Part shown: one piece after another, positions 59,210 through 64,000 of the stretch
How the letters are laid out: each line of letters opens with the position of its first letter
How positions within the stretch are numbered: position 1 is the stretch's first letter
NCBI RefSeq assembly: GCF_020166515.1
Contig: NZ_JAINZT010000007.1
Span: 1-64,000, forward strand
DNA length: 64,000 nucleotides
Direction: 5' to 3'
Source of the DNA: Robertkochia flava
GTDB lineage: Bacteria; Bacteroidota; Bacteroidia; Flavobacteriales; Flavobacteriaceae
Program-made: the position numbers and the translations under genes
The notes under the pieces: generated by a model
What the model was told of the DNA's origin: nothing
Seen by the model: the letters and a program-made list of their open reading frames with translations, nothing else
Database searches by the model: none

Positions 59210-61108
59210 TCAGGGTTGGAGTGTGGAAGGAGGAAGTTGGAGGTCGCGAAGGATATTGCGGAAATCGGTTCTGTTTTTGTATGCACTGAAATGGTAATTG
59301 CCGGCCAGGTCCGGAGGAAGCACTCCTGTTTCGAGACCGGTTTGCAGCAGGTTCAACGCTTTATCATCTTGTGAAAGCATCGCGTAACACTCTGCCTGTT
59401 CGATGATGTTCTGACAGCGTTTTATACGCAGTTGCAACAAGCCGTTGGTACCGGCGGCGGCAAAGGCCGAATCGGCTTTCACGGGATGGAATTCCCCACT
59501 TAGCTCCCCGAAAGTCTTAAAGGATCGAAGTGCTTCCTGCTGGCGATGTTCCAGGGTATGTACCTTAAAACTCAGCCAGTGACTCCATCCGTGTTCCGGG
59601 AGGATTTCCCTGCACCTTTCACTTTCCTGAAGGGCAAGGTCCATTTGTCCGTTCTGAAAATACAACCTGGCACTATGGTACCTAACAGTATAGGAAAGGG
59701 GGTCCAGCTCTAAGGCTTTGTTCATCTGTTGCCTTGCCTTAAGGGTGTCCCCAAGGATCCATTTCAGGTTGGCGTGATACATATAACTTTGGGATAGGTT
59801 GGGGTTGATGCGGATGCTTTCTTCAAAGGTGCGGTCGGCCAGGGTCCAGTTCTTATCCATAAAACCATAAATGGCAGCCAGCAGGGTTTTTGCCTCGGCA
59901 AGCCCGGGATCACTTTCCAGGGCTTTTTCAGCCAGGGATACGGCGAGGTTCCTGGCCCGCTCGTTTTCGATCTCGTTCTCCAGTCCCATCAGGAAATAGG
60001 TTTCCGCCAGCCCGGTATAGGCCTTTCCATAGGTGGGATCCTCATTTATGGCCTCCTGAAAATAATTGAGGGCCCGCACGTATCCCGCACCGGTTCGTTT
60101 TTTGAGTTCAAAGGTTCCTAATGAATACATTTCAAAGGCCTTCAGGTTTTCGGTTTGCTGCCCCTGCAAAGAAGCTGCCTGGACGTCGGTAAGCAGCTGG
60201 TGCACTTCTGTAGCAATATTCAGGGCGATCTCGCTCTGTACGGCAAACAGGTCGGTGATGCGCCGGTCGTAATTCCTGCTCCAGATGGTCTGGTCTTTGG
60301 AAGCGTCTATTAGTTTGATGTTGATACGGGCCTGATTGTCGTAGCGCTGTACGCTGCCCTCCACGATGTACTGTACCCCAAGTTCATCGGCGATCTCACT
60401 CAGGGAATGGTCCCCCCGGTTCCTGTAAACCTCCGACGAGGTCCGGGAGATCACCCGGATGTCGCTTACTTTGGAAAGGCGATGCAAGAGGTCGTCCATC
60501 ATACCGTCTGCAAAAAAACGGGTGTTTTCATTATTGCCCATATTGGAAAAAGGGAGTACGGCTATGGATGGTTGCCCGGGAAGTGCTGCTTCCTGCAAAG
60601 GGGAAAGCCTGAAAATGACCAGGCCGATAATCACCGCTGCCGCCACAGCAATCCATGTCGCAGGCCGTAACAAGAATTTAGGAACCTCCCGGTTTTTAGA
60701 AGATCCTGTGGGTTTGACCCTTATACCTTCCGAATTCGGAAGCGTCATATCGGGATTGCTGAGGTAGCTTTCCTTAAATGCCCCGGGGGTCATACCGTAA
60801 TAACGATGGAAACATCGGTGGAAGTAAGAAGGGCTGTGAAACCCTACGCGGTAAGCGATCTCAGAGGTAGTGGCTTCGTCGTGCTTCAGCATCTCCAAAG
60901 CTTCAGTTAACCGAACTCTTCTTATGAAAACACTGGCCGAATGGCCCAACAGCGATTTTACCTTCCGGTGTAATTGTGAACGGCTGTACCCTGCAGCCCC
61001 GGCGAGTTCATTAACTCCGAAGTCTTCTTCTTCAAGATGTGCTTTAACCAGCTGTTCCAGCCTGTGAAGAAACTGTTCGTCTTTGCTTTCCCTGATGGGC
61101 GTACCCAT
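59210..61108 (-). CDS. Membrane-anchored AraC-type regulator with TolB-like and TPR domains
   Basis: A 632-residue one-component regulator. Residues 8-112: AraC/XylS helix-turn-helix (GYSRSQLHRKVKSLLG, IAYRVGFHSPSYFHRCFHRYYG). Residues 151-167: one transmembrane helix. Residues 179-300: TolB-N-like domain (IAVLPFSNMG, ADGMMDDLLHRLSK, IVEGSVQRYDNQARINIKLID). Residues 330-570: TPRs. DNA-binding is inside and the sensor outside, as in CadC/ToxR. It is divergent from the barrel gene across 247 bases with palindromes, its probable target. Confidence 0.88.
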   Translation of the reverse strand: MGTPIRESKDEQFLHRLEQLVKAHLEEEDFGVNELAGAAGYSRSQLHRKVKSLLGHSASVFIRRVRLTEALEMLKHDEATTSEIAYRVGFHSPSYFHRCFHRYYGMTPGAFKESYLSNPDMTLPNSEGIRVKPTGSSKNREVPKFLLRPATWIAVAAAVIIGLVIFRLSPLQEAALPGQPSIAVLPFSNMGNNENTRFFADGMMDDLLHRLSKVSDIRVISRTSSEVYRNRGDHSLSEIADELGVQYIVEGSVQRYDNQARINIKLIDASKDQTIWSRNYDRRITDLFAVQSEIALNIATEVHQLLTDVQAASLQGQQTENLKAFEMYSLGTFELKKRTGAGYVRALNYFQEAINEDPTYGKAYTGLAETYFLMGLENEIENERARNLAVSLAEKALESDPGLAEAKTLLAAIYGFMDKNWTLADRTFEESIRINPNLSQSYMYHANLKWILGDTLKARQQMNKALELDPLSYTVRYHSARLYFQNGQMDLALQESERCREILPEHGWSHWLSFKVHTLEHRQQEALRSFKTFGELSGEFHPVKADSAFAAAGTNGLLQLRIKRCQNIIEQAECYAMLSQDDKALNLLQTGLETGVLPPDLAGNYHFSAYKNRTDFRNILRDLQLPPSTLQP

Positions 61109-61355: not shown

Positions 61356-63758
61356 ATGAAGCGAATACTGATTCTAAATGTGGTTCTTCTGAGCTTTCAT
61401 CAGGGTATATCCGGGCAGCATTTCCGGCTCGAGGATTTTGGTAAGGATCGCTGGCTGCGCTACCAGGGTAGGGTAAGTGCTATGGGGCTGTGGTACGACG
61501 GGGGAGCACCCCGTGATCCCTTTTCATATATGATCACCGGAAGTCTTAATTTTACTTTTGCAGGTATTTACCACCTTCCTCTGGCCTTTGCGTATAGCGA
61601 TCAGGAATTCCGGATGCCCTCTCCCGTTAAGCTTAACCGTTTCAGTTTACATCCTTCCTATAAGGGCCTGAGGCTCCATCTTGGCGATGCGGCTATGAGC
61701 TTTACCCCCTATACCCTCAACGGACATCAGTTTACGGGGGCAGGGCTGGAGTGGCAAACAGAAAAGCACTGGAGTATTGCCTTAATGTACGGAAGGTTGC
61801 TTAAGTCAAAGGCCTATAATGCGGAGGAGCCCTCCGGGGTACCTGTCCTCAAGCGAAAAGGGTATGGTTTGCAGCTGGGCTATGACCGGGGAACCTGGCA
61901 GCTCAAAGGAAATGTCTTTTCAGCAGCCGATCTGTTGCCCAAAGGGATTTCCGGCGATCTGCTTAATTACCCCTTTCCCGAACACAACCTTGTGATCGGG
62001 TTACAGGGCCGATTCCCGACACCTGGCAAGGGAACACTCATGTTTGATCTGGCAAACTCTCAGATAACCGTGAAGTCCGATGAGCTCAAGAAGTATGGTA
62101 TATCCCAGGAAAATGACAGTCTCTCTTTAGCAGCTCCTTCCGGTTTTAAGGCTATGAAGTTCAACCTGGCTTATCCTGCATTTCATGGGAATCTCTCCTT
62201 GATTTATGAGCGCATTGACCCCGGATACCGGACGTTCGGGGCCTACTATTTCAATGCCGACCTGGAAAATATCAGTGCCTCTGTGACACAATCCCTTTTT
62301 AGCGGGAAGGTGCATCTCAGCCTACGGTCGGGAATACAAAGGGATAACCTGGATAAGGCAAAGAAACAGGAGTTACAACGTCATGTGCATGCCGTTTCCC
62401 TTCAGGTTAATGCGGGCAAGCGTCTTTCCATGCAGGGGGCGTATTCTAATTTCAGGAGTTTCACCAATTCCAGGAATCAATTTGATAAGATCAACCAGGT
62501 AAATGAACTTGAAATGCCGGACACCCTGAATTACCGTCAACTTTCGGCTCAGGCTTCGCTTTCAATGAACTACAGGTTGGAAGGTGATGAGGGGAATACC
62601 AGGTCTGTTTCCTTTTACTCGGGCTACCAGGAGAACCGAAATGAAGGCGGTACCGGAGCAATACCCGAAGACAGGAATCAATTCCTTCAGGGAAACCTCT
62701 CCTATCATTCCCGGCTGGCATCTTCCGGATGGAGTTATACAGTAAACTGTAATAGCGCTTTGAATCTGAGCTCACAGGACACCTATTTTATATGGGGCCC
62801 GGGCCTGGACCTGGGGAAACATTTCTTTTCTGAAAAACTCCGTACCGCGGTTTCATTTTCCTATAACAGCAGCAAAAGCAGGTCTGAAACAAATACCAGG
62901 GTCTTTAATACCCGTATCAATGGCACCTACCAGATACATCCTGATCATGCCTTCAGAATTTCAGGGCTTTTTCAACACCGCGATCCGGGGGCGATGAGGT
63001 CTCATGACCTGACCCTGCAAATATATTACCAGTACACCTTTGACAACCTGAGGATTCATCTGGATCCTAAATCCGGGGTACGGGACCAAACCCCGGTAAG
63101 GGTGAGTTTCAGGTATCGCAATGTATCCTATTCGGGTACCCTGCCGGAGGTGAACCGGCAGATCGCCCTGGTAAGCCAAATGCCACAGTTTAAAAAACTG
63201 CCTCCTACGGTTCAGCACGATCTGGAGGTATTGCGCCAACGGTACCTGGAGCAGGAGAAAAGAGCGGGGTATAAAATACACGCCCTGAATTACCTGAAGG
63301 TACTCTATGACTATGGCGATATACTGATGGATTACTACACCTATGCCGATAAGACCATCAGAAAGATCATCCACGATATGAAAAGGACCGATCGTGAACT
63401 GGAACGCCGTTATGTGACCAGCTATCACGCCTTTCATGACCGGGAAGAAGAAAGGGAATGGGTACACGATCCGAAAGCGGTTCTTGAAGAATGCACCCGA
63501 AGGCTCAAAGCACACCGTTGGCTGGAGCGGGAATTCAATACCTACACAGGTATTGGGTTGGATCGAAAGAACCCACCCATGATTCGCACGTATATGGATG
63601 CCCATCTTGGGCGGTATTTTAAAACCATCAGTAAGAACACTTCCCCCGAAAACATCATGGAAGTCATGGAAACCAGCCTGATCGATCACTTCTACCGGTG
63701 GTCTCTGAAATACACCCCTGACCAAAAAGTTGAATTGCGTTATCCCCCGGAAAATTAA
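61356..63758 (+). CDS. Large outer-membrane barrel-like protein with C-terminal helical domain
   Basis: An 800-residue protein. Signal peptide MKRILILNVVLLSF ending near GISGQ. Residues 25-600 are amphipathic strands with aromatic girdles (LHPSYKGLRLHLGDAAMSF, AGLEWQTEKHWSIALMYGR, SYRLEG-like), as in an outer-membrane barrel. Residues about 605-800 are helical and charged (QRYLEQEKRAGYKIH, REEEREWVHDPKAV), an unusual periplasmic or extracellular tail. Seven bases separate it from a TANFOR-type gene. No family recognised; surface export or anchoring of its neighbour is inferred. Confidence 0.8.
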   Translation: MKRILILNVVLLSFHQGISGQHFRLEDFGKDRWLRYQGRVSAMGLWYDGGAPRDPFSYMITGSLNFTFAGIYHLPLAFAYSDQEFRMPSPVKLNRFSLHPSYKGLRLHLGDAAMSFTPYTLNGHQFTGAGLEWQTEKHWSIALMYGRLLKSKAYNAEEPSGVPVLKRKGYGLQLGYDRGTWQLKGNVFSAADLLPKGISGDLLNYPFPEHNLVIGLQGRFPTPGKGTLMFDLANSQITVKSDELKKYGISQENDSLSLAAPSGFKAMKFNLAYPAFHGNLSLIYERIDPGYRTFGAYYFNADLENISASVTQSLFSGKVHLSLRSGIQRDNLDKAKKQELQRHVHAVSLQVNAGKRLSMQGAYSNFRSFTNSRNQFDKINQVNELEMPDTLNYRQLSAQASLSMNYRLEGDEGNTRSVSFYSGYQENRNEGGTGAIPEDRNQFLQGNLSYHSRLASSGWSYTVNCNSALNLSSQDTYFIWGPGLDLGKHFFSEKLRTAVSFSYNSSKSRSETNTRVFNTRINGTYQIHPDHAFRISGLFQHRDPGAMRSHDLTLQIYYQYTFDNLRIHLDPKSGVRDQTPVRVSFRYRNVSYSGTLPEVNRQIALVSQMPQFKKLPPTVQHDLEVLRQRYLEQEKRAGYKIHALNYLKVLYDYGDILMDYYTYADKTIRKIIHDMKRTDRELERRYVTSYHAFHDREEEREWVHDPKAVLEECTRRLKAHRWLEREFNTYTGIGLDRKNPPMIRTYMDAHLGRYFKTISKNTSPENIMEVMETSLIDHFYRWSLKYTPDQKVELRYPPEN

Positions 63759-63765
63759 GTGGCTT

Positions 63766-64000
63766 ATGAAAAAAGTATGTTTTTTAATTTTATTCATCCT
63801 GTTGGCGGTTGCAGTCCGTGCCCAGGTATTTCCCGTCACAGCAGACCTCAGGGTACAACCGGTTCATCTGCAAAGACTGAGCGACCTCGGAGGATTTGGA
63901 TCTTCGCCTTATCCTGTTCAGGTTCATCTGTTACTCAACGACCTCAGTATAGACCAAAGAAGCGTTACTTTAAGCTATTCTCTGAGGGGGGAGGGCATTT
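63766..64000 (+). CDS. TANFOR/fibronectin-type secreted protein, 5' part
   Basis: A reading frame open to the window edge (78 complete codons). Signal peptide MKKVCFLILFILLAVAVRAQ, then VFPVTADLRVQPVHLQRLSD ... VQVHLLLNDLSIDQRSVTLSYSLRGEG. This matches in memory the N-terminal TANFOR-type domain of large Bacteroidetes surface proteins with fibronectin modules (pattern QV-P-LIPPYS-YLSDY ... LLNDL). Full length cannot be seen. Cotranscribed with the barrel protein gene. Confidence 0.7.
   Translation, partial: MKKVCFLILFILLAVAVRAQVFPVTADLRVQPVHLQRLSDLGGFGSSPYPVQVHLLLNDLSIDQRSVTLSYSLRGEGI

Follow-up and report, generated by a model that had tools for sequence, protein, structure and literature searches.

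A predicted wide outer-membrane barrel that regularly accompanies TANFOR-type proteins in Bacteroidota

Two adjacent genes at the end of a 64,000-nucleotide stretch of Robertkochia flava DNA (hereafter the window: bases 1-64000 of a 453-kb contig in a genome of 3.45 Mb) were analyzed, the first encoding an 800-residue predicted outer-membrane barrel protein and the second a TANFOR-related protein. Comparison with other genomes showed that the predicted wide barrel regularly accompanies TANFOR-type proteins throughout the phylum Bacteroidota and placed it in a family that has no name or entry in the libraries searched (Pfam, NCBIfam). The features of the locus are as follows.

61356..63758, forward strand: whole barrel gene, 800 amino acids (aa), ATG start; leader, barrel, hairpin and helical tail (relatives aligned)
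Residues 2-19 of the barrel protein, forward strand: N-terminal leader, a helix in the AlphaFold2 model
61455..63053, forward strand: residues 34-566, modeled as a barrel domain of 26 strands; closest fold MtrB (6r2q_B)
61635..61763, forward strand: highly conserved barrel stretch, approximately residues 94-136 (alignment of 20 sequences)
Residues 582-595 of the barrel protein, forward strand: hairpin (AlphaFold2 model)
63141..63713, forward strand: helical tail, approximately residues 596-786 (model and periodicity); absent from the untailed barrels of the wider family
63759..63765, forward strand: intergenic gap of 7 bases (sequence)
63766..64000, forward strand: start of the TANFOR-related partner, ATG at 63766, 78 codons inside the window

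The spacing of 7 bases given in the original prediction was confirmed, the stop codon of the barrel gene being followed by the gap and the ATG of the partner. On the contig the partner open reading frame (ORF) comprises 1354 codons from 63766 up to a stop at 67830 and is followed in the same frame by a 423-aa ORF (67864-69135) and next by a 108-aa ORF. Since both partner pieces align to a single 1884-aa chain at another locus (L031), the 423-aa ORF was regarded as the C-terminal part of the effector; each piece was searched as a separate sequence. The in-frame stop separates the linker from the toxin side (L002:11829-11865, contig 67828-67864) and may reflect a genuine split, gene decay or an error in the sequence. 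One further effector (L036) is likewise found in two neighboring ORFs, with a different division point. The signal peptides of both proteins were assessed by eye only.

The structure of the 800-aa protein was predicted with AlphaFold2 from a 67-sequence alignment (mean pLDDT 79.7, pTM 0.55). In this model 26 strands span residues 34-566 (25 with at least 7 residues, one with 4), followed by the hairpin and by helices at residues 596-786, of which a single helix covers 636-694. Hydrophobicity along the alignment was beta-periodic at residues 30-562 (0.208 vs. 0.141 ± 0.017 when shuffled) and alpha-periodic at residues 611-795 (0.237 vs. 0.157 ± 0.015 when shuffled), and the 190 tail residues 611-800 include 34 K/R and 31 D/E. 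The outer-membrane barrel with a charged helical C-terminus that had been proposed from the window is hereby supported, and the finding that was to speak against it, no barrel in residues 25-600 of a predicted structure, did not occur. Seven residues (N94, P100, K103, G110, T120, G123, and G128) are invariant across 20 barrel sequences, the untailed ones included.

The relationship of the barrel to known families was evaluated at the sequence and fold levels. Pfam includes models for MtrB/PioB, POTRA/Omp85 and ushers, and NCBIfam one for PorP/SprF, a barrel type whose strand number is well below that of this far wider barrel. The barrel protein itself had no Omp85, POTRA, usher or MtrB family match in Pfam (E-value up to 1), and a search with 20 barrel members returned just DUF5425 and CRASP-2, in one member each, from Pfam (E-value up to 0.01) and three unrelated single-member matches, none of them PorP/SprF, from NCBIfam (E-value up to 0.1). 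Membership in the PorP/SprF, Omp85/TpsB, usher and MtrB/PioB sequence families was therefore rejected for want of a model match, while a fold similarity to ushers and a likeness to the 26-strand fold of MtrB remain. Among the matches listed for the barrel model by Foldseek VIA-align, MtrB (6r2q_B) was the best at 12 percent identity, and the likeness to ushers was at the fold level only. A sequence search of the PDB with the barrel profile gave one weak match only, a designed binder (E-value 0.62).

For the partner, the assignment as a TANFOR/Fn3 surface protein held in part. An fn3 domain was detected at positions 295-357 of the translated stretch (E-value 1.2e-8), and the N-terminus is homologous to ORFs at loci selected with TIGR02542 (phmmer E-values 3.4e-49 to 2.8e-8), but the protein matched no NCBIfam model, TIGR02542 included, at E-values up to 1, nor was TIGR02542 matched anywhere in its genome (E-value up to 0.001). 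TIGR02542 exceeded its own cut-off in none of 395 Bacteroidota genomes and matched 12 of them, whereas the TANFOR-type profile matched 111, and the domain thus seems much more widespread than TIGR02542 shows. The statement that TANFOR proteins have no assigned role was not supported, because a 2020 study placed them among the polymorphic toxins (Jana, Salomon and Bosis, PMC7073777) and relatives of the present partner carry toxin ends. Among 72 partner ends these include ADP-ribosyltransferases, nucleases (WHH, colicin DNase, EndoU, NS_2), deaminases, TNT and RES, a toxin family being matched in at most 22 of the 72. We consider it very probable that the partner is a toxin in relatives. The 423-aa C-terminal piece and the following 108-aa ORF matched no toxin or immunity family in Pfam and NCBIfam scans. 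At one locus (L238:3424-8267) the gene directly before a 693-aa barrel relative combines a TANFOR-type N-terminus with RCC1 repeats, a cargo that does not appear toxin-like.

When the barrel protein of the window was used as query, 15 of 149 genomes of the family matched, its own included. In 10 of the 14 others a TANFOR gene directly adjoins the barrel gene (G001, G011, G019, G050, G056, G073, G096, G127, G129, and G143), and in two more (G021, G057) one lies on the contig of the barrel. Across the 395 Bacteroidota genomes the barrel was found at any strength in 131 and the TANFOR-type domain in 111, with both in 96, the barrel only in 35, TANFOR only in 15 and neither in 249, which corresponds to an odds ratio of 45.5 for all matches. 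When only strong matches were considered, all 87 barrel genomes were among the 90 listed TANFOR genomes; the remaining three had a fusion (G338), a weak barrel match (G185) and no barrel listed (G452). Both profiles (A1 for the barrel, and A2) were built in part from sampled genomes. Scoring was limited to two candidates per genome for the barrel and six for TANFOR, and copy numbers are thus lower bounds.

The arrangement of the two genes was determined for 112 strong barrel copies (E-value up to 3.1e-24, with ORFs hit in two fragments counted once in G378 and G436) and the 150 best listed TANFOR places (E-value up to 2.0e-16). A TANFOR start was located at most 600 nucleotides downstream of the barrel in 64 copies; in 35 more, a same-strand TANFOR match lay no more than 20 kb away. 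In addition, the best 80 of 421 loci were inspected by name, all of them tailed, and TANFOR was directly downstream in 76 (with a small called ORF in the gap of 5), behind one intervening gene in 1 and cut off by the contig end in 3. The loci gathered earlier overlap in part with the 421 loci, in that some come from genomes represented in both. That an unrelated porin is upstream by chance or operon convenience is a reading to which the pairs kilobases apart or on different contigs, and the 13 of the 112 strong copies with no same-strand TANFOR match up to 20 kb away on their contig, lend something, but the odds ratio, the adjacency in 76 of 80 loci and seven gene fusions make it extremely improbable; a chance neighborhood was rejected in view of the phylum-wide co-occurrence and the adjacency. 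The comparison of gene neighborhoods suggested in the original prediction thus found the side-by-side pair conserved, and the proposal that the two genes are one unit is borne out by adjacency, co-occurrence, fusions and co-variation. We regard them as almost certainly a functional pair.

Seven genomes carry single ORFs of 863-1016 aa in which TANFOR is followed by the barrel (L237, L239, L240, L241, L242, L243, and L247; E-values 1e-31 to 2e-21 for TANFOR and 8e-36 to 3e-13 for the barrel), an order like that of autotransporters, in which the passenger is ahead of the barrel. These fusions are evidence of direct contact between TANFOR and barrel. In 59 tailed pairs the barrel and TANFOR distances were correlated with r = 0.945, while TANFOR and the middle region of its own chain gave r = 0.865, a value that declines to 0.186 at the toxin end. 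This order of correlations is the one expected from binding at the TANFOR end. As to a possible contact of the tail with the TANFOR N-terminus, the tail adds little to the barrel in predicting TANFOR distances (partial r 0.23 vs. 0.69), and since TANFOR pairs with untailed barrels too, it is not required for pairing. Direct contact between the TANFOR end and the barrel thus appears likely from these sequence comparisons.

Outside the pair, distant barrel kin of 801 and 918 aa are found directly before CHASE2-guanylate cyclase genes (L233:2602-8062 and L235:1228-6177), in one case with a FecR-domain gene ahead (L233), and these loci perhaps represent an outer-membrane signaling operon with this barrel fold. 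Such neighbors, and the presence of TANFOR and barrel in one chain in the fusions, would suit a barrel that is a sensor or receptor with TANFOR as its ligand-binding part, the pair signaling or sensing contact and secreting nothing. The kin in L233 to L236 are, however, distant (E-values 4e-22 to 5e-17 with the barrel hidden Markov model) and have no TANFOR match, and within the tailed subgroup the barrel goes together with a chain that bears protease and toxin, which makes a sensor very improbable.

This tie was identified in the 72 complete partners of the named loci. The motif HE(L/I/M)GHG with a later third H, near residues 840-990, was present in 60 of 61 chains of at least 1500 aa and in none of the 11 chains below 1100 aa. 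The partner in the window's genome carries this motif too, with a sub-threshold match to Peptidase_M10 (E-value 0.0023). None of the 22 complete partners that adjoin untailed barrels has the protease motif. Seventeen of these 22 pairs come from 20 untailed regions hand-picked from pairs already known to be adjacent, in which the partners are chains of 1351-4150 aa; full-length Pfam scans of three such chains (L213, L225, and L230) matched no toxin family. The partner of the tailed subgroup is typically a polymorphic toxin made up of TANFOR, fn3, a conserved middle, the HExxH protease motif and a variable toxin end, and we think it moderately probable that the protease frees the toxin.

The exit route of TANFOR toxins was left open in PMC7073777, where export by the type IX secretion system (T9SS) was merely proposed. 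Under this explanation the T9SS would export the TANFOR protein via SprA, and the barrel would serve only as surface anchor or shuttle, like SprF/PorP for type B substrates, for which there is precedent (PMC9143113, PMC12618676). SprA was over its cut-off in all 80 TANFOR-positive genomes tested (of the 90 listed; 78 with a strong barrel) but in only 45 of 78 genomes with neither match (of 242). Because 31 of the 33 controls without SprA belong to a single family (f18), this association is confounded by descent; it is compatible with a need for the T9SS and was rejected as proof of T9SS export. SprB and C-terminal domain (CTD) proteins occur near some pairs (L034, L036), and their occurrence near TANFOR genes was reported by Jana et al. 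(PMC7073777). The T9SS sorting domain that was to be looked for at the end of the partner was reported neither in its two pieces (Pfam, NCBIfam) nor in the ends of the 72 relatives, and the partner was rejected as a carrier of one. The conserved part is N-terminal and not C-terminal, none of the 20 barrel members matched the PorP/SprF model, and the barrel is far wider. We therefore regard T9SS export with the barrel as anchor as a substantial possibility that falls short of even.

The reading that we favor, as moderately probable on the sequence evidence, is that the two genes form one outer-membrane weapon unit, in which a dedicated barrel would take hold of the effector by its TANFOR end and retain it at the outer membrane or let it through, with later release by a protease. 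The barrel would bind the TANFOR end and act as a sleeve or gate, the effector would span the outer membrane or sit immediately beyond it with its toxin end pointing outward, and the internal zinc protease would cut the toxin free upon target contact. The helical tail, presumably periplasmic, would be an addition specific to the toxin-carrying form and perhaps a docking or safety element. Whether the barrel is the conduit itself and not an anchor only seems to us evenly balanced. A further, doubtful extension is a new Bacteroidota export route, in which a 26-strand barrel would recognize an N-terminal TANFOR signal and pass or sheathe the effector without the T9SS, the toxin form adding a periplasmic tail and a self-cutting protease, other forms carrying giant surface proteins and some being TANFOR-barrel fusions.

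Several observations weigh against the weapon unit. As to the pairing, the barrels of G016 and G023 show no TANFOR inside the 20 kb fetched, the 13 strong copies described above are without one, 35 of the 395 genomes have a weak barrel match and no TANFOR match, and a CHASE2-cyclase gene adjoins the barrel kin in both TANFOR-less operons that were Pfam-scanned (L233, L235). The profiles are partly circular, since 5 untailed A1 seeds come from TIGR02542-selected stretches and the A2 seeds include barrel neighbors. As to the proteins, the pTM of the barrel model is just 0.55, 11 of the 72 complete partners are short and without the protease motif, and the partner at the locus is interrupted by an in-frame stop and has a C-terminal piece that matches no known toxin family. 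The order of TANFOR before barrel in the fusions does not fix the membrane side of TANFOR, the co-variation is partly expected because adjacent genes are co-inherited, and the weakening of the correlation toward the toxin end may be due in part to regions that saturate faster or to unequal rates. Finally, SprA in all TANFOR-positive genomes tested implies that the T9SS may do the export.

The pairing of barrel and toxin suggests that TANFOR toxins have an export or display unit of their own: a barrel that is nearly always found with them, sometimes in the same chain, is a concrete and testable candidate for their exit route, and the tie between tail and protease hints at a way in which such a toxin could be held harmless and later released. 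A term search of the text of PMC7073777 returned no mention of a barrel partner or of an internal protease, and literature searches found no published description of a dedicated unit of this kind, the barrel, the fusions, the tail-protease tie or the phylum-wide pairing; the effector class is known.

Two further observations were made on genes near barrels. In the window, a gene at 59210-61108 on the reverse strand, directed away from the barrel gene, combines an AraC-type DNA-binding domain with a FlgO-like part and TPR repeats and is a possible regulator. Near an untailed barrel elsewhere (L039:12444-18235) is a 1373-aa ORF that, by eye, we take to be Cas9-like, with ORFs that we take to be Cas1- and Cas2-like.

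The pair shares features with several known systems. With the TANFOR-class polymorphic toxins of Bacteroidota the partner has in common the homologous N-terminal domain, fn3, a leader peptide (by eye) and the variable toxin end of its relatives; it differs in having no TIGR02542 match and in being tied to a barrel. PVC metallopeptidase toxins likewise place an HExxH peptidase ahead of a toxin domain, with self-processing proposed there, but the spacing of their signature, HExxHxxQ-E, differs from the HExxHG(I/V)(F/Y)xLxH found here (PMC3482391). SprF/PorP barrels, as described in PMC9143113, PMC12618676 and PMC12635249, anchor and shuttle type B substrates that are often encoded next door, and are thus alike as outer-membrane barrels with a large surface protein as cognate neighbor (PMC12618676), whereas the present system has an N-terminal conserved element, no reported CTD, no PorP/SprF model match, a wider barrel and a helical tail. 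MtrB of the Mtr electron conduit (6r2q), a 26-strand barrel and the best fold match, holds a folded partner (PMC7198977); it differs in the low identity of the fold alignment, in the absence of a Pfam family match and in its partner, which is a cytochrome and not a toxin chain. Chaperone-usher barrels (PapC, FimD) differ in that no usher family match was obtained and in that the partner here is one long chain. Two-partner secretion (CdiB/CdiA type) differs in its protein families, no Omp85/POTRA match having been obtained here, and is alike in that a barrel gene adjoins a large toxin gene; in two-partner secretion the conserved part of the effector is N-terminal.
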